Under the pieces are notes generated by a model that had not been told where the DNA came from, searched no databases, and saw only the letters and a program-made list of their open reading frames with translations. Positions 4,419 to 36,580 of a stretch of 64,000 nucleotides of DNA are shown here, piece after piece (position 1 is the first letter of the stretch; each line of letters starts with the position of its first letter). Made by a program: the position numbers and the translations under genes. The stretch is from an uncultured Pirellula sp. Its GTDB lineage: Bacteria > Planctomycetota > Planctomycetia > Pirellulales > Pirellulaceae. The stretch spans positions 1 to 64,000 of the forward strand of contig CAIYZV010000285.1 in NCBI GenBank assembly GCA_903930765.1. The letters run 5' to 3'.

Positions 4419-5522
4419 TAACCGGCTTGTTGCGGCTTCTGCAAGATTTCCTGCACGAACTGCCTTGGATCTCGTCATGAAAAATCGTGGTTATCACTGC
4501 GGCGACTGGGTGAAGCCATTCCTAGTGTCACCGATTGAAATCATGCAAGGATAGGTTTAACAACATTGCCGGCTATATCGGTCAAACGATAATCGCGACC
4601 GCCGTGTCGGTAGGTCAGTTTGGTGTGATCCAAACCCATTAGGTGCAGAATGGTTGCGTGCAAATCATGGATATGAACTTTGTCTTGCATCGCCCGGAAA
4701 CCGAAATCGTCTGTTGCACCATACGCCATACCGCCGCGGGCTTGTTGATACGTTGCCGATAAAAGGATTTCCCGATGAAGCCACTTTAGTGACCAGTCGT
4801 GCTCCATGAAGCGATACGCTAGATCGTCCAAAAGTTCGGGGTGGGTTGGCCGTTCGCCTTGTCGCCCGAAGTCGCTTGGTGTCTCGACCAATCCACGACC
4901 GAAGTGATGCCTCCAAACACGATTGACGATGACGCGAGCGACGAGGTCTTTGGAATCCGAAGTGATCGAAAGAGCCAAATCCAACCGGCCGCTCCCGGAG
5001 TCCCATGCCTTGGTCGCTCCTTCCGAGCGTGCCAGGACAGATACGAAGCGTCGCGGAACTGGCGGACCCAACTTATTCGGGTTGCCTCGGATCTCGAGCG
5101 AGGCATCTCGCATGTCAGACTCATAGACAATTTTGCTGCCGTGGGTTCCATCAGCCTGTCGGACTTCGAGGCGACAGTCTCGTACGCCTGGACGGCTGCA
5201 GTTTGAGATTCGCTGGGCATGGGGGCGCCGCGTTGTATCCACTGCTCGAGCTTGGCGATGAAAGCATCCGGCAATTTTCCTTTCGGTGGCATTGCAGAGT
5301 TTGGGTCTTTGTAACGGACCACTTGGATGAGCATGCTTTCATCGGGCTTTGAGGAAACCAAAGCCGGTCCGCTGTCTCCTCCGGTGCGAATGTGGCCAGG
5401 GGTGTCTAGCCGAAGGCCGCCTTGCAGAGGTTTTGAGCTTGCCGAGTGGCATTCGTAGCAGTGTTCTGCGAGCAAGGGGCGTATCTGCTGTTCAAAGAAT
5501 GCGATTCCTTCTGCAGGGTCGC

Positions 5523-5563
5523 TGGGAGGAACATAGTCGCTGGCAGGAACATAGTCGCTGGCG
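5523..5563. repeat. 18-bp tandem repeat (about 2.3 copies)
   Basis: GGAACATAGTCGCTGGC(A/G) repeated at 5528 and 5546; encodes PASDYV PASDYV. Confidence 0.85.
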
Positions 5564-5644
5564 GGAATCTGCGTGGTTTCGCTGCCGTTGCTTGCGATGA
5601 CAGCTTGGCTTGATGTTTGCTGGGTGTCTTGTGCTGGCGTTTGG

Positions 5645-5668
5645 CTGAACAGGCAACTGAACAGGCAA
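5645..5668. repeat. 12-bp perfect tandem duplication
   Basis: CTGAACAGGCAA x2; CLFS CLFS in the signal-peptide region. Confidence 0.8.
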
Positions 5669-6033
5669 AGTGGGAGCCAAAACGCCGACAGCCGAAAATA
5701 CAGGTAGGGCCGCATGCGATTGTCCTGATGGGGTGGGAGCGTTCGAATGTAGCCCTTAAACATGTCGAAAGCAACTGGCATTGTGAGAAAGCTCAAGCTT
5801 TGCGCGGATTGTTTACTTTGGGGAGGAACGGGCTAGGTATGGGTTCGGGATCGTTACAGTTACCGTACCTACCGTTACCCACATGGGTGCGGAACACACC
5901 GACGCGGAGACCGTGTCGAGCAACGAATATTTTGATCTGTGCAAAAGGTCCCGTGATTTACGCGTCGCGATCGGTTAGGATATCAGCGGGTGCTTTTCGA
6001 TACTTGCATCGGTACCACATGTGCAGGAAATAA

Positions 6034-9290: not shown

Positions 9291-11678
9291 GTGTACGTGG
9301 CTGTTCCGGTCTTTGTAACACCCTTGATGGCTTTCCTATGGCTCAGTTGCTGCGCATTTGCGGCGTCGGATTTTGAATCGGAAGTACTTCCGATTTTGAA
9401 ACGGAGCTGTGGCAAGTGCCATGGCCCAGACCTTCAGGAATCCGGGGTGCGGGTCGATAATCTCTCGACCGATTTGGTGAATGACCGGGCGGCAGCGGAA
9501 CGATGGCATGAAGTTCTCAATGTGCTTCATTCGGGCGAGATGCCACCGCAGGAGGAACCGCAGTTGACCGAGGTGGAGCATGAGACGTTGGTCCGTTGGA
9601 TTTCGGGAAAGATCCGAGAGGCCGTGGAAGCGACTCGCGACACCAGCGGACGAGCAGTGTTACGCCGATTGAATCGTGTTGAGTACCAAAACACCATGCT
9701 CGATTTGCTGGGGTTGGACATGGATTACACCCGTGATCTGCCTCCGGATAGCGTTTCCGCGGATGGATTCACGAACGATGGCCGCGCCTTGGGCATGTCG
9801 GCGATGCAGCTCGAATACTACCTCGATACAGCGCGACGCGCTCTCGATCGCGTTATCGTCAGTGCCGTTGCTCCCCAGGTTTTTCATCACGAGTTCACCG
9901 AGAGCAAGATCGATAACTGGCTTGGTAATGCCCAACGCTCGCAACGACTCGGCCGTCAGCAGGAATTTTTAGCCAAGATGAAAGATGATTACCCAGAGGT
10001 TGGGGATTTCGTAGTCCGGGTCAAGCTCAACGCCGAGTTAAAGCCCGATAAAGGGTTCCCTCTGCTGGAAGTCTCGGTGGGGTATCAGCCGGATACGGAA
10101 ATCCTGATGCGTGAGTTCGAGCTTGTGGAAATCACCACCGAAGGATCTCAGACTCATGAGTTTCGAGGCCGTTTGGAAAACTTTCCCTTACCCGTGCGAG
10201 GTCAAGGCAAATTCCCTGGCTTGGTAGTGCGAGTCCGCAATCGCTACGACGATGGCTCACCGCTACCTAAGGAGCTAACCGACAAAAAGCAAGAATATCC
10301 GGACGAACCAGACTCGCCAGTTATCGTTGTCCAATCCGTTGAGTTTCACGGTCCGTTTTTTGACCAGTGGCCACCTCTTAGTCATCGCCGAATTCTTTTT
10401 GAGTCGGGTCAAAGGGAAACGGATGAACGAGGTTATGTGCTCCAGGTTTTGCAAAGGTTCATGGCGCGGGCATTTCGCAGGCCTGTCAGCGATTTGGAAA
10501 TCTCTCGCATGATGGAGTTTCATGATTCGATTCGAGCAGATTTTCCGACACTCGAAGAGGCGATGCGCGAGACGCTGGCTATGGTCCTGATCCAACCGGA
10601 TTTCCTGTACCATTTTGAACCTTCGGGTGATTCCAAGCGGCCGATTCAAAGCCATGAATTGGCATCGCGTTTGTCGTACTTTTTATGGAGTTCCATGCCC
10701 GACGAGCGATTGGAAAAGTTGTGTATAGATGGGCGCTTGATGGACCCAAAGGTGATGGCGTCAGAAGTCGATCGGATGCTCGCTGATCCTCGTTCGATGT
10801 CCTTCGTTCGTCAATTCACCGATCAATGGCTACACCTGGAGTACATGGACCGAGTCGCGGTGAATCGGGAGTTTTACCCCCAGTTCGACGACTCGCTCAA
10901 GGAGCAGATGCGGGCCGAGACGCATGCGTTTTTTGCGGAGTTGATGCATCAGGAACTGAGTGCGCTGAATCTGCTGTCATCGGACTTTGCGATGTTGAAT
11001 GAGCCGATGGCGAAGCATTATGGCATTTCCAGAATCTATGGACGTACGTTCCGCCGTGTGGAACTGGGGGCAGGTTCCCATCGTGGAGGATTGCTCGGAC
11101 AAGCGGGTATACTGCTAGGGAATTCTACCGGTGCCGATTCGCATGTGGTCCGACGTGCGGTCTGGATTCGAGACCGATTGCTCAACGACCCACCATCCCC
11201 ACCGCCACCCGATACGCCGCCGCTCGAAAAAGCGGACCCCGAATTTTTAAAGCTTTCTGTGCGCGAGCAATTGGAAATCCATCGCAGCCGCGAAGCCTGT
11301 GCGCGTTGCCATCGCGGAATCGACCCTTGGGGGATCGCCCTGGAAAACTATGATGCGATCGGGCTCTGGCGGGACGAAGTTCGCCGTAAAGTGAATGGGA
11401 AATTCGAAACAGTACCGGTAAAATCTGCCGATAATCTCCCCAATGGTGTTCCGCTCGATGGGGTAGAATCGCTCAAAGCCTACTTGGTTAATCAACGTAA
11501 AGAGGATTTCGCCAGATCGTTGGTGACCAAGCTAGCGACTTATGCCTTGGGGAGGCGATTGGAACTCACCGATCAAGCTACCATCGATCAATTGACCACA
11601 CAGTTTGCAGCGAATGATTATCGTATACGAGGACTCATCCAAAGCATTGTCGCCAGCGAGCTCTTTTTGACCAAGTAG
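9291..11678 (+). CDS. DUF1587/DUF1592/DUF1588/DUF1585-type planctomycete cytochrome protein
   Basis: N-terminal CGKCH and C-terminal CARCHRGIDPWGIALENYDAIG; RAFRRPVSDLE; RLSYFLWSSMPD. Confidence 0.92.
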   Translation: MYVAVPVFVTPLMAFLWLSCCAFAASDFESEVLPILKRSCGKCHGPDLQESGVRVDNLSTDLVNDRAAAERWHEVLNVLHSGEMPPQEEPQLTEVEHETLVRWISGKIREAVEATRDTSGRAVLRRLNRVEYQNTMLDLLGLDMDYTRDLPPDSVSADGFTNDGRALGMSAMQLEYYLDTARRALDRVIVSAVAPQVFHHEFTESKIDNWLGNAQRSQRLGRQQEFLAKMKDDYPEVGDFVVRVKLNAELKPDKGFPLLEVSVGYQPDTEILMREFELVEITTEGSQTHEFRGRLENFPLPVRGQGKFPGLVVRVRNRYDDGSPLPKELTDKKQEYPDEPDSPVIVVQSVEFHGPFFDQWPPLSHRRILFESGQRETDERGYVLQVLQRFMARAFRRPVSDLEISRMMEFHDSIRADFPTLEEAMRETLAMVLIQPDFLYHFEPSGDSKRPIQSHELASRLSYFLWSSMPDERLEKLCIDGRLMDPKVMASEVDRMLADPRSMSFVRQFTDQWLHLEYMDRVAVNREFYPQFDDSLKEQMRAETHAFFAELMHQELSALNLLSSDFAMLNEPMAKHYGISRIYGRTFRRVELGAGSHRGGLLGQAGILLGNSTGADSHVVRRAVWIRDRLLNDPPSPPPPDTPPLEKADPEFLKLSVREQLEIHRSREACARCHRGIDPWGIALENYDAIGLWRDEVRRKVNGKFETVPVKSADNLPNGVPLDGVESLKAYLVNQRKEDFARSLVTKLATYALGRRLELTDQATIDQLTTQFAANDYRIRGLIQSIVASELFLTK

Positions 11679-11711
11679 ATTTTTGACAGAGTAGCGTTTT
11701 GGCCAAGCAGA
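11664..11711. repeat. 16-bp tandem repeat x3 spanning a stop codon
   Basis: TTTTTGACCAAGTAGA / TTTTTGACAGAGTAGC / GTTTTGGCCAAGCAGA; contains TAG of the DUF1592-type gene at 11676-11678. Confidence 0.8.
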
Positions 11712-11805
11712 GCTCGTGCAACGTTTTGGCAGCCACAGATCCTGTTCCCAGTTCCCAACCTCACCCTCCAGTCAACGAAACCATCGTCCCAAGAAGCGAG
11801 AACCC

Positions 11806-13134
11806 ATGATGCATCTCGATCGACGTTCCTTTCTGCTAGGTACTGGTGTTTCACTCGGGTTGCCGTGGCTTGAGTGCATGGGCGAGGCTGCAGAGCCCCA
11901 CGACACGGCCAAGCGAATGTGCGCGTTGTACTTTGGGTTCGGGGTGGGATTGCCTAGCGAGGATAGCGAAGAGGGAAAGTGGCGTTGGTTTCCTCGGGGG
12001 GAAGGAAAAGACTTTCAATTCACCGATGTCCTCAATCCGCTTGAGCCCCATCGCGACAATGTGACGGTGCTCGGTGGCCTATCCCATCCCAATGGGCGCC
12101 GCATGGGTGGTCATGACACTGCAGACACATTTTTGACGGCTTCGTATTTGAACAATAAATTCTTGCGCAACACTGTGTCGATTGACCAGCTTGCGGCACG
12201 CGCGTTCGGCGATAAAACACGGTTCGCATCTCTGGTCCTTTCGACCGATGGTGGTGTTGGTGAACCGACTCGCTCGAGCACCTTGTCCTACGACGATCAA
12301 GGCCGCCCCATTCCAGCCATGCACCAACCGCAACAGATCTTCGACCGTTTCTTTGGAGCGGGCGATGCGGATTTGGTGGCGAGCCATCGTCGGCTCAAAA
12401 GCACTTCAGGAATGCTCGATCGTGTCCTCGAGGACTCGCGTTCCTTGCGAGGGAAACTCGGGAACCAAGATCGCGACAAACTCGACGAGTATTTGGAATC
12501 GGTTCGTCAAATCGAAGAACGTGTTGCAAGATCTCAGCGTTGGTTGAATATTCCTCGGCCTGAGTTGAGTGACGAAGATCGCAAGATGCTAAAGCTCAAC
12601 GCGGACGATCAGGCTCCTAAAGACTTTATTCGAACCATGTACGACTTGATTTATTTGGCCTTTCGAACCGATTCCACTCGTATTGCGACGTACCAGATCA
12701 CGAATATGGCGGATTGTTCATCGAAGGCGGCCAAGTTCCCGCAGCTGGAAGGCTTTAAGAAGACATTGCATTCATTGGCGCACGACTGGAACAAACAAGG
12801 TGGCGCGGAGGAACTAGGCCGGTGGGATCAGTTTATGGCGCAGCAGCTTGCCTACTTCCTCGATCGCCTTTCCGGGGCACGGGAAGGGGATGCCTCGGTG
12901 CTCGACAGAACGATTGTTCTTTATGGTAGCAGCAACAGCAACACCCACGAAAACAAAAATTACCCGCTGGTTCTCGCAGGTGGACGATCGTTGGGGTTCC
13001 AGCACGGTAGGTACATGAAATTCAACGAAGATGTACCATTGTCCAATTTGTTCGTTACGATGCTGAATCGAGTGGGTGTCGAAACCGGTTCGTTTGTGGA
13101 CAGCAATGGCGAGATAACCGACCTGACGGTTTGA
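11806..13134 (+). CDS. DUF1552 domain-containing protein
   Basis: MMHLDRRSFLLGTGVSLGLPWLE N-terminus; NRVGVETGSFVDSNGEITDL C-terminus; directly downstream of the DUF1592-type partner; start chosen inside the 11716 ORF. Confidence 0.88.
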   Translation: MMHLDRRSFLLGTGVSLGLPWLECMGEAAEPHDTAKRMCALYFGFGVGLPSEDSEEGKWRWFPRGEGKDFQFTDVLNPLEPHRDNVTVLGGLSHPNGRRMGGHDTADTFLTASYLNNKFLRNTVSIDQLAARAFGDKTRFASLVLSTDGGVGEPTRSSTLSYDDQGRPIPAMHQPQQIFDRFFGAGDADLVASHRRLKSTSGMLDRVLEDSRSLRGKLGNQDRDKLDEYLESVRQIEERVARSQRWLNIPRPELSDEDRKMLKLNADDQAPKDFIRTMYDLIYLAFRTDSTRIATYQITNMADCSSKAAKFPQLEGFKKTLHSLAHDWNKQGGAEELGRWDQFMAQQLAYFLDRLSGAREGDASVLDRTIVLYGSSNSNTHENKNYPLVLAGGRSLGFQHGRYMKFNEDVPLSNLFVTMLNRVGVETGSFVDSNGEITDLTV

Positions 13135-18044: not shown

Positions 18045-18656
18045 TTTCTAGAGGAACAAGGGTGATCTGGCGTGGATGAAATCACCGTTATTTGGAATCA
18101 TTGTGAGTTGAGGTAGATAGGTTGATCGATCGGAACAACATTGTATCTCACCGGAACGTCGGGGTCGACGGTCTAGCCGCCGCCTCCGCGGTTATCCTTT
18201 CAACCATGAAGTACTGGCTGCTCGTTTCGCCGGACCACGAGACGCTATAGTTCGACGTGGGACCATCGATGTTTAGCGCATTGTAATCTGTTGTCAGGCT
18301 GCTGGATTTCTAAGGGAACGGAAGCGACGCGCACGGTGCGTTCGAGCGTTGGGCCTACGAACGAGGAAATCGAGGAGCGCGTTTGAAAAAGATCACACTC
18401 GCCATGGCTAGCTGATGGTTATGCGAGGATGGTTCGCAACACATCCAATGTACTTTGAGATTCGTTATCTTTGTTGGGCAGCTCTGACGGAAGCACAAAG
18501 CAAAACGTACCGCTGGGAGAGGCTGGGATGCGGATCCTATCCTATGCTTTGAAGTCGCGATCTATGATTTTGGCAACCATTTGCATCGCGTTTTTGGGAA
18601 GATTGTGACTTGTGGTAGACTGGGGCCGATTCGTTTTACGCATGGCTTTCGGACGT

Positions 18657-18720
18657 GACCATATCGATCAGACCATATCTCGGCGGTTCCGTTGTGGGTA
18701 AAGAAGTTGTGGGTCAAGAA
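18657..18720. repeat. Two adjacent tandem duplications (14 bp x2, 15 bp x2)
   Basis: GACCATATCGATCA/GACCATATCTCGGC and GTTGTGGGTAAAGAA/GTTGTGGGTCAAGAA, just upstream of the BNR gene. Confidence 0.8.
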
Positions 18721-18740
18721 TAGGAGAAGCCAACAAGAAG

Positions 18741-19835
18741 ATGAGGATTGCAATACACGTTTTAATTCTGTTGACCATGCTCGAACTTGTTGTCGTTGCG
18801 GAGCCTCCCACGTTCGTCCCTGGTGTTTGGAAGCGGTTGACGCCATCCACCGTGACCACAAGTTTCGAGGATCATGTCTTTTGTCAGGGGGTTGCCATCG
18901 ACCCCCAGCAGCCGACAACACTTTATCTTTGCATCTGTGCGTACGACGTTGCGAAAGGGGGGTTGTTCAAAACGACCGATTCCGGAGGGACGTGGAAGAA
19001 GATCGGGGCGCTCGATGAGCCATTGCACGTGGCTGTTGACTCGAGCGATTCGAATCATCTCTATTGTGTTGATGGTGTGCGAGGTGCAACGCAGGGGTTT
19101 TGGGTTTCGCGTGACGGTGGAGAAAACTGGTCGATGCCGGAAGGATTCAAGAGAATTACCGAAAAACCTGTCGGGACCCGCGATCTGTATTCCCTTGCGG
19201 TCGATCCGACGGATTTTCAGCATATTTTAGTATCCTTTCATTCTCCCTGGTCGGATGGAAGGAATTGCGGCGTGCTGGAAAGCATCGATGGGGGCGAATC
19301 CTGGAGTGTTCATGCACCACCGCAGACGCTCAAGGGAGGCTACGGTATGGCGGTCTTCTTCCTTTACGACCCAGCAAAGAAAGTCGGCGATCGAAATACG
19401 TGGTTGTTCACTGCGCAAGAAGGTGGTTTCTTTAAAACAACTGATGGAGGGAGATCGTGGAAAAACGTCTATCCGTATCCGATGACGCATGGAGGTAATC
19501 AGCTCTATCGAGCCAAGGATGGAACGCTCTACTCCGGCGGTTATCAGTACCCAGCTCGTAGTGTCGACAACGGTTCCTCGTGGCAGCAGATCAAATCTGG
19601 TCTCGTGTACAGTTGGTACATGGGAATCTGCGGTGACGGAAGAAATATTTACACTGCTTGCACGAACAAAGGGGAACCGTTCTTCTTTTCGCCAGAAGGA
19701 GATGGATTGGATTGGAAGCCTTTGAATGAACAAACGTTCTCAGCAGCCCCCTTTTCCATGGTTTATGACCCAATCCATCACATCTTGTATGCTGCGAGTT
19801 GGGAGGAAGGACTGTTAGCGATTCAACTCGAATGA
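18741..19835 (+). CDS. BNR/Asp-box repeat (sialidase/VPS10-like) exported protein
   Basis: repeated TTDSGGTWKK, SRDGGENWS, SIDGGESWS, TTDGGRSWKN; signal peptide. Confidence 0.82.
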   Translation: MRIAIHVLILLTMLELVVVAEPPTFVPGVWKRLTPSTVTTSFEDHVFCQGVAIDPQQPTTLYLCICAYDVAKGGLFKTTDSGGTWKKIGALDEPLHVAVDSSDSNHLYCVDGVRGATQGFWVSRDGGENWSMPEGFKRITEKPVGTRDLYSLAVDPTDFQHILVSFHSPWSDGRNCGVLESIDGGESWSVHAPPQTLKGGYGMAVFFLYDPAKKVGDRNTWLFTAQEGGFFKTTDGGRSWKNVYPYPMTHGGNQLYRAKDGTLYSGGYQYPARSVDNGSSWQQIKSGLVYSWYMGICGDGRNIYTACTNKGEPFFFSPEGDGLDWKPLNEQTFSAAPFSMVYDPIHHILYAASWEEGLLAIQLE

Positions 19836-19980
19836 GCTCCCTTTTTTGCGGTGCTAATTCGATTGGTCCATGCTGTGCGGGCAATGTACGGTTTACACTG
19901 TTCACCGTGGCAGAGGGTGTCAAACTCTAAATGCAAGACGCGTTGCAACGTGAAGATAGGTCACGCGAGAACCAGAGAAC

Positions 19981-22926
19981 ATGAAACAGATAATCCTGAT
20001 CTTATTTGCTTTTGCCAACGCGATGGTGTACGCCCGTGCTGAGGACTTCGATGCCAGGTTGAAGCCATTGCTCGCGGATAAATGCGTGAAATGCCATGGG
20101 CATCAACAAGCCAACGGAGACGTGAACCTGCAAGCCATGGATGCGGTTTCGCGCTTTCTCGGTAATCCCGATTTGATCCAGCGAGTGCTCGAAGCGATCG
20201 ATGAGGGGGCGATGCCACCCGATGGTGAGCCAAGTCTCAATGCGCAAGACCGTATGGATGCAGTTGCCATTCTTAAACGGATGCTGCGTGAATCGAGCGA
20301 GCAAGCCCCTGCGGTGCGTATTCCCATTCAACGCCTCAATCGTTTCCAGTACAACTACGTCGTTCGCGATCTGTTCCAGATCCATCGGGACGTATTTGCA
20401 TTGCCTGAAAAGCTGATGACGCGATATGACGATTATCTACGCGAGGCGTTAGGTGATCCGAACTCGGGACGAATCCCCGATGTCGTCCATGTCGCCTCCG
20501 ATTCGTTGGCTCCCTTGGTTGGTTTGCAGGATGTGAAACCATTCCCGAAAGATCTTCGCGCCGAGCACGGGTTCGATAATCAGGCCAATCAGCTTAATCT
20601 CTCACCTCTATTGCTCGATTCTTTTCTCAGGTTGAGTGTATCTATCGTTGAGAGTCCCGATTTTAATGAGAAGACCGTGGGGGTCTGGAGAGAATTTTTC
20701 CAAGAGCCACTGCAAGGAGTTGATCGGCACTTCGAGGTTCGCGGGCGGTTGGAGAAATTCTTAAAGAGGGCGTTTCGCGGTTCCGTCGACGAGGATGTTC
20801 TGAGTCGATACACATCGTACGCCGAGAGCCAGATGGATCAAGGCGTTCCATTCACGGACAGCATGAAGAAAGTCGCTTCGGCCGTTTTGTCGTCGCCATT
20901 GTTTTTGTATCGATTACCAGCGAGCGATAGTGCTTTTGATCCTCATGTTCTGGCATCGCAATTATCCTTTTTCCTGTGGAGCAGCGGTCCGGATACCGAG
21001 CTGCTGGAATTGGCAGAGGACGGCACGTTGAGCGATCCAGCAGTGCTGAATCGAACCGTAGTGCGGATGTTGAAAGATCCAAAAATCGAACGGTTCTTGG
21101 ACTCGTTCCCGACCCAGTGGATGCAGTTGGAGAACCTGATGGCAGCCACCCCTGACCCTAGGATTAATAAGTACTTCAGCCTAGATCGGGAGCGTCCGGC
21201 GAGTGTGCAGATGGTGCTCGAACCTCTGTTGCTATTCGATACGGTGTTTGTGGAGGATCGTCCCCTGTCGGACTTGATAGCCCCAACCTTTTCTTACCAA
21301 AGCGACTTTTTGAAGACTTGGTACAGCGATCCATTGAAGCCGCCTGCCGTCGATGCCGAGCGGATCCGTATCCACAATCAAAATAGCGACCAGGAGCGGG
21401 TGAGACTTAAATCGGAGATTGTTGCATCTCAAGCAGAGTTGAATGAACTCATTGAGCCTGTTCGAGCGCGCCTGTTGGAGAAGCAACGCGAGGAAGAAAA
21501 AGCTGACTCCCGTGCGGATTTTAAAGCTTTCGCCGCGTGGGATTTTGATCACGATTTGTCGGATTCCGTGCGTGGGTTGAACTTGAAGGCTCACGGTTCA
21601 GTCGTGCTGCAGGACGGTTCCGTGATCCTAAATCAATCGTATCTCCAAAGTGATCGACTGCCGATCAGCTTAAAAGCAAAGACACTTGAGGTTTGGTTTC
21701 GCCTCAAGGACCTCGACCAGCGTGGTGGAGGTTTGATGGGCATTCAAGGACCAGGGGATTTATTCGACACGATTGTGATCGGCGAAAGAAAAAATCGACA
21801 TTGGATCTCAGGGAGCAACGGATTCAGTCGTACGGAAGATTTCCCTGAGTCTTTTGAAGAGACCGCTACTGGCGAGCTAGTGCATCTAGTGATGGTTTAT
21901 GCCCAAGACGGCACGACGGCACTTTATCGTAATGGCAAACCCTACGGCAAGCCGTATCGAAAAGGGGAAGTTGCTTTTCCTCACGATGAGTCATCGGTCC
22001 TCTTTGGACTGCGGCATCTACCACCGGGTGGCAATAAATTCTTGTCTGTTGCGATTGATCAAGCACGGCTCTACGATCGGGCACTTTCGATTTCGGAGAT
22101 AGAAATGTTGGCCGATGGTAATCCAGAGCACATGATCGAAAAAGAAATCACTGCGTCGCTTACCCCCGATCAGCGATTGCAACAACAGAGACTGATTGCA
22201 GAGATCCAGCGAGCGAAATCGGAACTGGATGCAGTTCCGGGAAATCTCGACTCGAGCAAGGTTGCCATGGAAGCCGAGCGAACGTTCGAGGAGGGATTGA
22301 AGAACCAGCTTCGATCCCGTGAATTTCGGAGAGTTGCCACGGAGGATCCTCGTTATGGTGGGATCATCACCAATGCCGCCATGTTGAGCATGACCTCTGG
22401 GCCGCAGCGCACGCACCCAGTTGCTCGGGGAGTTTGGATCATCGAAGTCATCTTCAATGATCCCCCGCCACCACCTCCCAACGATATCCCTCCCTTGGAT
22501 GAAGATTCGGGCGCTAAGGAATTAACCATTCGAGAACAGTTCGCAGCGCATCGCAAGAATCCATCGTGTGCTGGATGTCACACGAAAATCGATCCGCTGG
22601 GGTTTGCACTTGAGAATTTTGATATCACAGGTCGCTGGCGTGACCGATACGGCAACGGGCGTGCTATCGATTCGAGTGGAAAGTTACTGCAAATGCATGA
22701 GTTCGGAGATGTGGTTGCATTCAAGCAATTATTGATCGATGAGAAACGGCGTTTTGCGGAGGCGTTCACGGAGCATCTTCTTCGCTATGCGCTGGCTCGG
22801 GAACTCACCCCGCATGATTCTTTGACCGTCGAATCGATCTTGGAAAAGTGTGAGCAGGACGGTTTTCGGATCCAATCACTTATTCGAGAGATCGTGCTGA
22901 GCAAGTCATTTCGAGGAAGCAGATAG
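19981..22926 (+). CDS. DUF1592/DUF1588-family cytochrome protein with internal LamG-like domain
   Basis: KCVKCHGHQ and SCAGCHTKIDPLGFALENFD; central FAAWDFDHDLSDSVRGLNLKAHGSVVL...AIDQARLYDRALSISEIEMLA LamG signature. Confidence 0.9.
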   Translation: MKQIILILFAFANAMVYARAEDFDARLKPLLADKCVKCHGHQQANGDVNLQAMDAVSRFLGNPDLIQRVLEAIDEGAMPPDGEPSLNAQDRMDAVAILKRMLRESSEQAPAVRIPIQRLNRFQYNYVVRDLFQIHRDVFALPEKLMTRYDDYLREALGDPNSGRIPDVVHVASDSLAPLVGLQDVKPFPKDLRAEHGFDNQANQLNLSPLLLDSFLRLSVSIVESPDFNEKTVGVWREFFQEPLQGVDRHFEVRGRLEKFLKRAFRGSVDEDVLSRYTSYAESQMDQGVPFTDSMKKVASAVLSSPLFLYRLPASDSAFDPHVLASQLSFFLWSSGPDTELLELAEDGTLSDPAVLNRTVVRMLKDPKIERFLDSFPTQWMQLENLMAATPDPRINKYFSLDRERPASVQMVLEPLLLFDTVFVEDRPLSDLIAPTFSYQSDFLKTWYSDPLKPPAVDAERIRIHNQNSDQERVRLKSEIVASQAELNELIEPVRARLLEKQREEEKADSRADFKAFAAWDFDHDLSDSVRGLNLKAHGSVVLQDGSVILNQSYLQSDRLPISLKAKTLEVWFRLKDLDQRGGGLMGIQGPGDLFDTIVIGERKNRHWISGSNGFSRTEDFPESFEETATGELVHLVMVYAQDGTTALYRNGKPYGKPYRKGEVAFPHDESSVLFGLRHLPPGGNKFLSVAIDQARLYDRALSISEIEMLADGNPEHMIEKEITASLTPDQRLQQQRLIAEIQRAKSELDAVPGNLDSSKVAMEAERTFEEGLKNQLRSREFRRVATEDPRYGGIITNAAMLSMTSGPQRTHPVARGVWIIEVIFNDPPPPPPNDIPPLDEDSGAKELTIREQFAAHRKNPSCAGCHTKIDPLGFALENFDITGRWRDRYGNGRAIDSSGKLLQMHEFGDVVAFKQLLIDEKRRFAEAFTEHLLRYALARELTPHDSLTVESILEKCEQDGFRIQSLIREIVLSKSFRGSR

Positions 22927-23033
22927 AAATGCGAGTATGGCCGTCGGACCACGTTCGAAGATTCGACAAAGAGAGCAGAACTAGGCTATAATCGAATGCT
23001 AACCAACGTATTCTTTACTCAAAGATCACAGCT

Positions 23034-24416
23034 ATGAATCTATCGAGACGAACGTTTTTGAAGGCTAAAGGCTCGGTGCTAACGCTACCCTTTTTGCCGT
23101 CGTTGGTGAGCGCTGCCGAGGGTCCACAGGTTTCGCATGGCGGGCCTGCTGGAAATCGGCCTAGCAAGAAGTTGGTCCTTGTTTACATGCCCAATGGTAT
23201 TGTGCGGCGTTGTTTTTTTCCTGGCGAGGAGAATGCAGAGCTTCCCGATTTCATCGGAGGCTTCGACGCAGACAAGGTCAAGGAGCAGCGTCGACTCAAA
23301 AACAAGCCTGGCATTTATCCGCTTGAACTGACCTCGACCATGCAACCGTTGGGGACGCACAAGAACGACATAACGCTGATCACTGGGTTGGACAGGACCT
23401 ACAAAGACGGCCAAGACGTGCACGCCCAAGGAGCCTCGTGCTACTTGACCAGTTTGTCACCCGAGCAAGCCAAACGGCAGGGGATCGCTCATCCCAACGG
23501 ACGCAGTTTGGATCAAGTGATCGGTGATGCGGTGGGGCAGGCGTCGATCTTCAACACGCTTGAGATTAGTTGCAACGGGTTTACAGCCCCGAAGGAGCCG
23601 ATCGAATTTGACAATATCTCTTGGTATGGTCCCGGCAAGATTGCTCCTTCGATTCGTGAGCCTAAGAAACTCTATGACCGGTTGTTCCTGCGAGATAGTT
23701 ATCGTAAACATATCGCCGATGTTTCGGATCTGGTTCTCGCAGATGCGAACGCCTTGACGAAAAAGCTCGGGTATGACGATCGCGCGACGATGGACGAGTT
23801 CATGGAAATGATTCGAGGCATCGAATTGCGAATAGAGAGGATGGACAAACTCCTCTCGGATGTCGACATCAAGGTACCGAGCAATGAGGTGCTACCGCGA
23901 GGCGAGTACATCCGCCTCCAAATGGATTTGATGCTGTTGGCATTCCAAATGGGGATCACCAATGTATGCACCTTCATGCTCGGCCCTGAACGGTGGGATG
24001 CGACACTCATGTATGAAGGAGTGTTCGACATGCCGGTTCAGCATCACAACATGACCCACAATCAGAAGGGGGATGGATACAAGGATTTGCAAAAGATCGA
24101 TATTTTCCATATGCAGCAATACGCGTATCTGATTCGACGGATGAAGGAGATTCAGGAATCCGACGGCAGTACGATGCTCGATAATTCGCTGATTGCGTAC
24201 GGTGCTGGCCTGGGGGATGGCGCGACGCATCAGTTTTTTGATCTTCCGATGATCGTAGCTGGCAAGGCCCAAGGGCAGATTAAGCAAGGACGATTTATCA
24301 AGATGCCCAGTGGAACGCTGAACTCCAATCTATGGCTGACCATCGCTCAACTGATGGGGCTTGAAATCGACTCGTTCGCCGATAGCACCGGAGTTATCTC
24401 TGAACTTTGGGCGTGA
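23034..24416 (+). CDS. DUF1552 domain-containing protein
   Basis: MNLSRRTFLKAKGSVLTLPFLPSL; LVYMPNGIVRRCFFPG; AQLMGLEIDSFADSTGVISEL. Confidence 0.9.
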   Translation: MNLSRRTFLKAKGSVLTLPFLPSLVSAAEGPQVSHGGPAGNRPSKKLVLVYMPNGIVRRCFFPGEENAELPDFIGGFDADKVKEQRRLKNKPGIYPLELTSTMQPLGTHKNDITLITGLDRTYKDGQDVHAQGASCYLTSLSPEQAKRQGIAHPNGRSLDQVIGDAVGQASIFNTLEISCNGFTAPKEPIEFDNISWYGPGKIAPSIREPKKLYDRLFLRDSYRKHIADVSDLVLADANALTKKLGYDDRATMDEFMEMIRGIELRIERMDKLLSDVDIKVPSNEVLPRGEYIRLQMDLMLLAFQMGITNVCTFMLGPERWDATLMYEGVFDMPVQHHNMTHNQKGDGYKDLQKIDIFHMQQYAYLIRRMKEIQESDGSTMLDNSLIAYGAGLGDGATHQFFDLPMIVAGKAQGQIKQGRFIKMPSGTLNSNLWLTIAQLMGLEIDSFADSTGVISELWA

Positions 24417-24569: not shown

Positions 24570-25445
24570 TTATCGGAGTTCCTTCAGCCATGCGAGCGAG
24601 CCTTCTTGCCAAGCGTCCCACATAGGACCTTTGTAACCGTTGAGTCCATGCCCACCCGAAGGAAGTTCAAGGTACTTTGACGGGATTCCATTGGCCTGGA
24701 GAGCTGCAAAGAGTGCTCTGCTGTTTTCGGGTGGTACAGGAGCGTCATCCAAGGCATGCGCTAAATATGCTGGCGGTGTGTCGGCCGTAACCTGCAGTTC
24801 GTTCGAATACAGCTTGACCAGCTCCGGCGATGGATCCTTGCCCAAAAGATTCTGTTTGGATCCTGAGTGTGTTTTTTCGCCAAAGGTCACCACAGGGTAA
24901 ACCAGGATTGCAAAGTCGGGGCGGCAACTGAGTTGGTCGGTCGGATTGCTTGCCGATGCATTGCCTCGATCAAAGTGAGTTAACGCGGTTGAGGCCAGAT
25001 GCCCACCGGCGGAAAATCCCATAATCCCGATTCGAGACGGATCGAGGTTCCACTCTTTCGAATGAGCACGCACGGTGCGAATAGCGCGTTGGGCGTCGAG
25101 CAGTGGGACGGCGTGTCGTCCGGCGGGAAGTCGGTATTCCAAGACCACTCCTGTGATGCCATGTTGGTTGAGCCACGATGCAATCCCATGTCCTTCGGGT
25201 CCAACGACGAGACCTCCATATCCACCTCCTGGACAAATCACGATTGCGGTACCGTTCCCACTCGACTTAGGTTGATGCACCGTAATCCAGGCATCGGCAT
25301 CTTCGGTCTTCCCATCGCCGATAGGTGCACGCCCTTCCCAAAGTGGGATGCGTTTTGCTGATGTTGGCGTTTCGGTGGAAGCCTTGTCTTGCGCATGCAA
25401 CAAGGCAGGGAAAAGCAACAGGAACGAAAGCAAGGTTGGTTTCAT
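24570..25445 (-). CDS. Alpha/beta hydrolase (acetyl-xylan-esterase-like)
   Basis: MKPTLLSFLLLFPALLHAQ signal peptide; IVICPGGGYGGLV; GIMGFSAGGHLAST; GGHGL. Start trimmed from the 25703 ORF. Confidence 0.87.
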   Translation of the reverse strand: MKPTLLSFLLLFPALLHAQDKASTETPTSAKRIPLWEGRAPIGDGKTEDADAWITVHQPKSSGNGTAIVICPGGGYGGLVVGPEGHGIASWLNQHGITGVVLEYRLPAGRHAVPLLDAQRAIRTVRAHSKEWNLDPSRIGIMGFSAGGHLASTALTHFDRGNASASNPTDQLSCRPDFAILVYPVVTFGEKTHSGSKQNLLGKDPSPELVKLYSNELQVTADTPPAYLAHALDDAPVPPENSRALFAALQANGIPSKYLELPSGGHGLNGYKGPMWDAWQEGSLAWLKELR

Positions 25446-25490
25446 GAGAGCTACTGAAAAAGGGTGGGTGGCGGGGATTTCGCAGGGAGT

Positions 25491-25554
25491 TGATAGCAGA
25501 GTTCGATGATAGCACGGGTCGATGATAGCACGGGTCGATGATACCAGAGTCCTC
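25491..25554. repeat. 16-bp tandem repeat x4
   Basis: TGATAGCAGAGTTCGA / TGATAGCACGGGTCGA x2 / TGATACCAGAGTCCTC upstream of the alpha/beta hydrolase start. Confidence 0.88.
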
Positions 25555-25660
25555 GGGAAGCTGATCCTTTGTTCCTTTTGCAAAAAACCACAAATCGCTG
25601 CTGTCGCTTCCCATGCACCTACCCAGCTTGATCCGTAGAAGATTAGGGTGTTTTTTCCCA

Positions 25661-25688
25661 CTGGCCCCTCCGATCTGGCCCCTCCGAT
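25661..25688. repeat. 14-bp perfect tandem duplication
   Basis: CTGGCCCCTCCGAT x2. Confidence 0.85.
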
Positions 25689-25759
25689 CGATACCTTTCC
25701 CACCTCATGGAGTGCCTGTTCCGCTCACAGCGATTCGAACTTTGTTAAGGCGAAGGTTG

Positions 25760-26871
25760 TGATCGGCGCGGGAGCGGTGGACCATCCAAAGGTTCATGGA
25801 CAGCCGACCGAGTTTTTCGTTGAAGCCGATGGGGGAAGACCATCCCATTGCGTGGACGAACCAGCCTAAAACTGGTGGGCGTTTCTTCTACACGGAGTTT
25901 GGTCATGACATGCGTTCCCTGAGTACTCCATTTGTTCGCCAGCATATTCTCGAAGCCCGATGCAAAGTACACGATGGTGCATCGGTTTTTTCAGGAGATA
26001 CGCGACGGGCTATTGCTCCAACAGGAATTGACCAAGATTGCAGAGCATCGCGCCTTGGAAGACGTGAAATCGCTTGCATCGAGGGCGTTTCGTCGGCCGG
26101 TGTTGGATTCCGAGTACTCAGCCCTTCTAACCCTCAACAAGAAGTTGAGAGAGGATGGGCAGTCGGTTGAGGCGGCGGTTCGGGGTTTGCTCATCGCAGT
26201 ATTGATGTCACCTAGCTTCAGTTATCACCAAACCAGCCTGGATGGGATGGATGGCGTTCAACCGCTCGATAACTACGATTTGGCGAGTCGCTTGAGTTTC
26301 TTCTTGTGGTCATCGATTCCTGACGCGGTGCTACTCGAGAGTGCGGCGTCTGGAAAGCTTCAGGACGATTCGGAACTGCGAGCACAGGTCCGACGCATGT
26401 TGAAGGATCCGATCCTTGCCGATGCGTTTCCCGGCTACAGCGACGAGCTTCGATCAGCCATTTTTGACGAACCAACACACTTAGCAACCTATTTTATTCA
26501 AAAAGATCTGCCGATAACGGAATTGCTCTCGAGCGATTTGACCTTTGTGAACGCAGCGTTGGCCAAGCACTACGGGGGTGAGTTGGAAACTGGTTCGCAA
26601 GTTGGATTCTATGAAGGAAGGGGACGGAACCGTCCTGGACCATTCGTGCATCATGTTGGCGAACGAGCAATGGACAGCTTACAATAGCCCGAAAATCCCG
26701 ATGGTCATGGCGGGGGGACTTGGTGACACACTTCCAACAGGACGAAGCTTGGACTATGAAAATGCCTCGAATCGCAAGATGTCGTCGCTGCTCTTGAGCA
26801 TCATGGATCGTATGGGGGTGGCATTGCCTGCCTTCGGCGACGCAACCGATCGACTTGATGGGATTGGATAA
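25760..26871 (+). pseudogene. Collapsed ThuA - DUF1592 - DUF1552 operon relic
   Basis: ThuA C-terminus in shifted frames (VDHPKVHGQPTEFF; EDHPIAWTNQPKTGGRFFYTEFGHDMRSLSTPFVRQHILEA), then DUF1592 piece (SRAFRRPVLDSEYSALL...RLSFFLWSSIPDAVLLESA...NAALAKHYGG), then DUF1552 C-terminus in another frame (LVRKLDSMKEGDGTVLDHSCIMLAN...IPMVMAGGLGDTLPTGRSLDY...SIMDRMGV). Confidence 0.88.
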
Positions 26872-26928: not shown

Positions 26929-27903
26929 TTGGATGAGAAAAGGGAGCTTGGAATGTTGCAGCGCGCAAACGTCGAGAAGATTCAGCCGAAAAGATTCCTT
27001 GATCGAGGTTGGGGCTTTCCTAGTGCTTCCTTTGCCGTTCTTGGTATAGCAACAATGCTGTTCCCGTCATTGGTTCCTGGGGTGGTCTCCGGGGCGGAAC
27101 CTGAGCGGATCGCGCTTTGGCCGAACGGTGCTGCGGGATCCGAAGCGAGAAAAAACGAGCCAGAGAAGGAGGACCGTGCGAATGGCGCGTGCAATGTGAC
27201 CAACATTCACGCACCCTCGATCACGCCGTATTTGCCCAAACCGGAGGTCGCAACGGGGACGGCGATCATCATCGCGCCAGGGGGTGGGCACAGGATGTTG
27301 TGTTTGGGGCACGAAGGGGACTCGCTGGCGGAGTGGTTCGCCGAGCATGGAATTGCTGCGTTTGTACTGCGTTATCGATTAGCGAGGGAGGAAGGCTCGC
27401 AGTACACGGTGGACGATCATGCCATGGCGGATACACGCCGCGCATTGCGGTTGGTGCGCAGCCGCGCGAGCGAATGGAAGATCGACCAAGACCGCATTGG
27501 GATCCTTGGTTTCTCGGCGGGTGGGGAACTCGCGGCGTTGGCAGCCATGGAGAACGACGCAGGCAAATCCGAGAGCGCGGATTCGGTGGAGCGGGTGAGT
27601 TGCAGGCCTGATTTTCAGGTGCTCATCTATCCGGGTAGTTCCCATCGGTTCACGGTTACCAAGGGGATGCCGCCGGCGTTTATCGCCTTAGGGGCTAAGG
27701 ATCGCGATGACATTTCGCTGGGCATGGCCAAGCTGTATCTACAGTACAAAGAAGTGGGAGTGCCGTGTGAGCTCCACATTTACTCCAATGCCGGGCATGG
27801 TTTTGGGTATCGGGCCGACGCAAAGCACGCAGCAGCCCAGTGGCCACTCCGTCTCCGCGAATGGCTGGTCGACAGCAAACTGCTTGTCGAGGCAAATCGA
27901 TAG
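26929..27903 (+). CDS. Alpha/beta hydrolase (BD-FAE type)
   Basis: AIIIAPGGGHRMLCLGHEG; GILGFSAGGELAALAAME; NAGHGFG. Confidence 0.88.
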   Translation: MDEKRELGMLQRANVEKIQPKRFLDRGWGFPSASFAVLGIATMLFPSLVPGVVSGAEPERIALWPNGAAGSEARKNEPEKEDRANGACNVTNIHAPSITPYLPKPEVATGTAIIIAPGGGHRMLCLGHEGDSLAEWFAEHGIAAFVLRYRLAREEGSQYTVDDHAMADTRRALRLVRSRASEWKIDQDRIGILGFSAGGELAALAAMENDAGKSESADSVERVSCRPDFQVLIYPGSSHRFTVTKGMPPAFIALGAKDRDDISLGMAKLYLQYKEVGVPCELHIYSNAGHGFGYRADAKHAAAQWPLRLREWLVDSKLLVEANR

Positions 27904-34952: not shown

Positions 34953-35246
34953 TTACGCGATCACTTCTTGGATCACCTGTGAGGGTTGGACTCCGGTCAG
35001 TTTTTGATCGAGTCCACCGTAGTAGTAGGTGAGCAGATTGTGGTCCAGCCCCATAAGCCGCAGGATCGTCGCGTGAAGATCACGGACATGGCGGCGGTTG
35101 ATAACGGCTTCGGCACCGAGGTCATCCGTCTCTCCGTAGCTGCAGCCACCCTTTGCACCGCCACCGGCTAGCCAATAGGTGAATCCTTTGGGATTGTGAT
35201 CTCGGCCCCCCTGGTCTCCTTGGGATACCGGTTGGCGACCAAACTG
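34953..35246 (-). pseudogene. 3'-terminal DUF1501 fragment, frame intact, no start; overlaps the nhaA 3' end in a different frame
   Basis: Minus-strand translation: [97 protein letters not shown]. Confidence 0.92.
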
Positions 35247-36580
35247 CGGTTGGGTTTGAGAAAGACCAGCAGCAGGATGGAACCGAGGATGGTGCTGACG
35301 AGGGATCCGAGCAATGTCCCGAATTTTCCTGCAGCTTCGAGTTCGGGGAACTCATCGGTGGGAAAGGATAATGCATTGAGGAAGAGAGACATCGTGAAAC
35401 CGATACCTCCCAAGGACGCCCCCCCAAAGAATACAGGCCAACTCACCCCGGCCGGGAGTCGCGTAAACCGCAGGGCAATCGCGATGTAACAAAAGAGGAG
35501 AATACCGAGGGGCTTTCCTACGAATAAGGCAACAGCGACGGCGATCGCGACGGAGTTTGAAAGAGACGACGTTTCCAGTTCGACTCCTGCGTTGGCCAAC
35601 GCGAAGATGGGCATTACCAAATAAGCGACCCAAGGATGCAAACCCATTTCTAATCGATGCAACGGAGAATGCGATTCGCGGGCAATAAATTGCAATTGCT
35701 CCAGGTTGACGGGGAGGTGTTCCGTTTCCGGATCTGCGCCACGCAGGTCATCCCAAGTGTCGGAAAGGATTTCCACAAAGGTGCGATTACCGATCCAAGG
35801 TCGGGAGGGAGTCATCAGGCCGAGCAGGACGCCAGCGATGGTGGGATGGATCCCCGCATGATGGAAGGCGATCCAAATCGCAATCCCGACCATGACGTAA
35901 ATAGCGATGGACCGAACACCGATCTTGTTCAGCAGATAGACCAACGCAAATCCTGCGAGTGCGGCGAGGATGTACCCCCAGGAAATGGTCTCCGTGAATA
36001 CGATTGCAATCACGAGGACTGCAATGATGTCATCGACGATGGCCAGGGTCAGCAAGAAGATCTTCAAGCCAAATGGGACGCGAGAACCGAACAACGCCAG
36101 AATTCCGACCACGAAGGCGATATCGGTCGCCATGGGAATAGCCCAGCCGCGCTGGCCCGGTTGGGCCCATTGCATCGCCGTGTAGATTGCTGCTGGGGTT
36201 ACAACACCACCGATCGCGCCAAAAACTGGAAGCAATGCCTTGCGGGGGTCCCGGAGTTCACCCGCTACGATTTCGCGTTTGACCTCGAGACCTACCACGA
36301 AAAAGAAGATGGTCATCAGAATGTCGTTGATAACCAAATGCCCTAAGTCCCCTTCGATTTTGAAGTGTCCGAATGCGATCGATATCGGGGTATGCCAAAA
36401 GGCTTCCATCGCATGGGACCAAGGAGAGTTGGCGATCAGCAGCGCCAAGATAGTACATGCGACGAGGACTAAGCCGCTGGTGGCTTCGATATGCAGGAAA
36501 TGCTTGACCGGTACCAACCATCTTTCAACCGGTGGGACGGGGATCTTTGCATTCTTTGGCGGGGATTCATGGTGCGACAT
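35168..36580 (-). CDS. nhaA: Na+/H+ antiporter NhaA
   Basis: 470 aa; [66 protein letters not shown]. Confidence 0.95.

Follow-up and report, generated by a model that had tools for sequence, protein, structure and literature searches.

Probable deletional decay of ThuA and of DUF1592-DUF1552 operon genes, shared by two Pirellula genomes

In the draft genome of an uncultured Pirellula species (5.74 Mb in 527 contigs), fragments of several protein-coding genes are packed into little more than one kilobase, raising the question of what these fragments once encoded, how they were brought together and whether any of them still functions. They lie at 25729-26871 of the window, the 64,000-nucleotide stretch of contig C285 analysed here, between a BD-FAE-type hydrolase gene on the reverse strand (24570-25703) and a second BD-FAE-type hydrolase gene on the forward strand (26929-27903). 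The original prediction placed the start of the relic at 25760 and read it as a collapsed ThuA-DUF1592-DUF1552 operon, possibly a decayed third copy of operons nearby, with the same layout as another relic at 4541-5796. Pfam and tblastn matches for each piece support three gene remnants in successive shifted frames, namely ThuA, DUF1595/DUF1592 and DUF1552 fragments, with a start near 25729 instead. The idea of a collapsed, dead cluster also stands, as does that of DUF1592-DUF1552 as a real operon, which it is in relatives, but the third copy, the operon membership of ThuA and the parallel with 4541-5796 are not supported.

The central and last pieces derive from two genes that are adjacent and intact in other genera. 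The DUF1592-protein remnant (25956-26588, forward strand) contains DUF1595 and DUF1592 domains and corresponds to approximately residues 667-901 of a protein of about 1122 amino acids, its frame (25923-26687) matching PF07631 (DUF1592) at 1.8e-29 and PF07637 (DUF1595) at 1.7e-13. This piece had been described correctly, except that it has also lost 72 bp in frame at 26403-26412, which was overlooked. It is followed on the same strand by approximately the last 92 residues of a DUF1552 protein (26589-26871), recognized by comparison with intact DUF1552 proteins encoded beside the DUF1592 orthologs and terminating where these naturally stop. Because this tail lies beyond the Pfam domain it gives no Pfam match; its frame (26551-26871) aligns with the final fifth of the intact proteins at 54-67% identity over 89-92 amino acids. 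Intact operons are carried by four genomes (G041, G038, G039 and G045) that belong to other genera of this family; in these operons, a DUF1592 protein of 1122-1170 amino acids is directly followed by a DUF1552 protein of 438-486 amino acids. Both relic fragments are collinear with these operons, and the DUF1592 piece is 44-51% identical to the intact orthologs across its whole length. About 1.66 kb is missing between the two pieces, and roughly one-fifth of each protein is left. The pieces are orthologous to the planctomycete-specific PSCyt/PSD (DUF1592/1595/1588/1585) gene and the DUF1552 gene of those operons, but they are an intact pair no more, lacking a full-length DUF1592 protein with its cytochrome and DUF1588/1585 parts ahead of DUF1552. 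Conserved neighbours of PSCyt genes have been described, their function being unknown (PMC5615132), and we found almost nothing in the literature on DUF1552 or DUF1592 in planctomycetes.

The first piece had been given as one ThuA remnant; ThuA is indeed present, but is itself split over two frames, both on the forward strand. Remnant A (25729-25831) is a mid-protein segment, SDSNFVKAKVVIGAGAVDHP...FFVEAD, that has lost the 5' half of the gene; it was delimited from a tblastn piece at 25729-25851, in the frame 25639-25869, and from an alignment by eye to the intact ThuA protein of G033. Remnant B (25826-25957) is the C-terminal part, EDHPIAWTN...FVRQHILEA, with the final residues missing; it is 84% identical to the intact G033 protein, and its frame (25763-26170) matches ThuA (PF06283) with E = 2e-9. 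By tblastn, identity between the ThuA piece and the ThuA proteins of G033, G035 and G025 is 77-84%. Where the remnants meet (25823-25831, forward strand), the frame shifts and approximately 37 codons are missing between what were probably two copies of AAGCCGAT(G). The kept AAGCCGAT(G) agrees with both sides of the junction in relatives, which are represented by ...VEADW (GTCGAAGCCGATTGG) in G033 and GKPMG (GGAAAGCCGATGGGA) in G041.

That ThuA, DUF1592 and DUF1552 lie on one strand and in this order in the window favors an ancestral operon of all three genes. We consider such an operon unlikely, however, given that no ThuA-like motif was found at the four intact operon loci, that no DUF1592/DUF1552 pair adjoins ThuA at any of six loci in relatives read by eye, and that G041 encodes an intact ThuA and an intact DUF1592-DUF1552 operon on different contigs. 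Because of these six loci and the separate contigs of G041, ThuA, whose orthologs are solitary elsewhere, is more likely to have been a neighbour of the operon than a member of it.

Only 2 of the 27 genomes of the genus contain the relic, the second being Pirellula sp. isolate Loclat_bin-07289 (G018), in which it lies on contig C64 in a syntenic stretch of approximately 96-97% identity. The ThuA/ThuA, ThuA/DUF1592 and DUF1592/DUF1552 junctions are identical in the two genomes. Their copies of the relic differ by 25 substitutions and one indel, and the DUF1552 part in G018 has acquired an extra TAA stop. Total divergence is 2.2%, not above that of neighbouring intact genes, which counts against a dead cluster but could be due to chance or residual constraint.

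With two copies available, the proposal that the DUF1592 remnant is still translated, in a residual or new role, can be weighed. Its frame (25932-26687) is open in both genomes (254 amino acids in the window, 278 in G018), the 72-bp deletion is in frame, and the remnant frames at 25729-26868 show 12 nonsynonymous and 13 synonymous changes between the genomes, when about 17-18 nonsynonymous changes of 25 are expected under neutrality. The deficit, which likewise counts against a dead remnant, has a P of 0.005-0.024 depending on transition bias. It could reflect chance in so small a sample or residual constraint; given that the changes number only 25 and that several regions were inspected, we regard it as unexplained but weak. 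Set against continued translation are the absence of the N-terminal ~60% of the protein (including the cytochrome part) and of the C-terminal domains, replacements at positions invariant in four genera, which occurred in each lineage separately after the split, and the loss within the 72-bp deletion of the block FAREF-GQWLRYRDYL, conserved in all four intact orthologs. We therefore regard a translated remnant as quite improbable, and we give very little credence to the idea that a planctomycete-specific protein survives here as a domesticated fragment under residual purifying selection. All function in the relic has, we infer, been lost. The retained pieces are about as distant from their orthologs in other genera as those orthologs are from one another, and such distances point to a fairly recent death of the genes.

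An origin of the junctions in assembly chimerism, or of the frameshifts in sequencing errors, might be suspected given a draft assembly in 527 contigs, but is extremely improbable, since the sister genome has the same junctions while differing by substitutions and the 72-bp indel, and since hundreds of codons are gone from the missing pieces, a loss that no correction of bases can turn back into intact frames. There is hardly any case for a decayed third copy of the window operons at 9291-13134 or 19981-24416, which belong to the same families and include one 1.5 kb away, as the relic is not closest to them (32-35% identity for the DUF1592 piece and 26-30% for the DUF1552 piece, versus 44-51% and 54-67% for the operons of the four other genera) and must therefore represent an orthologous operon that died rather than a copy of its neighbours.

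The two genomes also differ elsewhere along the syntenic stretch. At 25503-25543, a short tandem unit, TCGATGATAGCACGGG, has one extra 16-bp copy in the window. A BNR/sortilin-like gene (18654-19932; open reading frame 18741-19835) is present in the window but not in G018, whose corresponding flanks are only 81 bp apart. At the position corresponding to 35245-35247, C64 of G018 has approximately 5.1 kb with a DUF1553-like gene (1284 amino acids) and a DUF1501-like gene (503 amino acids) that the window genome lacks, a difference that may stem from loss or from gain.

We conclude that 25729-26871 is very probably a shared, non-functional pseudogene cluster, in which ThuA and a DUF1592-DUF1552 operon have been cut by separate deletions. 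Its pieces are homologous to intact, functional genes and are both truncated and frameshifted; the 3' end of DUF1552 is the only natural gene end among them, the 5' ends of all three genes being gone. The 72-bp deletion, seen in the window genome but not in its sister, can be read directly: G018 has two copies of the 10-bp repeat AAGGATCCGA, 72 bp apart, and the window has a sole remaining copy (26403-26412, forward strand). The 72-bp block is found in intact orthologs, and G018 therefore represents the undeleted state. All junctions with a readable parent fall on short direct repeats, of 10 bp for the 72-bp loss and of 5 and 7 bp for losses of 937 and 1732 bp at 4541-5796, while the probability of a shared repeat at random breakpoints is approximately 0.006 for 5 bp, 0.0007 for 7 bp and 0.0001 for 10 bp. 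For the older junctions, no close undeleted parent was found among the 27 genomes of the genus and their breakpoints are therefore approximate; these junctions, too, presumably arose from microhomology.

The relic at 4541-5796 is a collapsed DUF1553-DUF1501 operon whose G018 counterpart is intact (DUF1553, 819 amino acids; DUF1501, 455 amino acids), the 937 bp having been lost between CTGGA repeats and the 1732 bp between GCCGCGG repeats. Like the relic at 25729-26871, it is a collapsed PSD-type operon of planctomycete-specific families with deletions at short repeats. It differs in its families, in being younger and in what it retains: DUF1553 still has its true 5' end, and a piece from the middle and the 3' end of DUF1501 also survive, whereas no gene start is left at 25729-26871; the proposed repetition of layout and retained ends is thus not borne out. 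A survey of the genome by domain for further relics, a step that had also been suggested, gave 14 matches to PF07631 (DUF1592) and 62 to PF07587 (DUF1553). This domain search, to which remnants devoid of a domain, such as the DUF1552 tail, are invisible, found no relic besides the two in the window; short frames on contigs C148, C17 and C172 run to contig ends, and those on C34 and C330 start close to the beginning of their contigs. No truncated match to PF07586 was seen in the genome, C-terminal remnants being invisible to this model.

RecA-independent slipped mispairing and illegitimate recombination are both established ways of losing DNA between short direct repeats, and one or the other is the likely cause here. 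A solitary ThuA would have adjoined a DUF1592-DUF1552 operon in the common ancestor of the two Pirellula species. At least four older deletions would then have removed the 5' half of ThuA, approximately 37 codons inside ThuA, the end of ThuA together with the 5' ~60% of the DUF1592 gene, and the 3' end of the DUF1592 gene with four-fifths of DUF1552 (~1.66 kb). After the split, the copies would have decayed separately, by the 72-bp deletion in the window lineage and the stop codon in its sister.

The relic is a case of ordinary deletional pseudogene decay as it occurs in bacteria, likewise with fragments of adjacent genes, frameshifts, stops, common descent and losses at 5-10 bp repeats, and adds no new mechanism or function. 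The deletional bias of bacterial pseudogenes (PMC3091646) and short direct repeats as one source of pseudogene frameshifts (PMC3046158) have been described in host-associated bacteria, whereas the organism here is a freshwater planctomycete, and the window provides clean planctomycete examples of deletions at repeats of this length. Within 74 kb, PSD-type operons range from intact in the two species, through collapsed or missing in only one of them, to collapsed in both, making this a small documented case of operon turnover in Pirellula.
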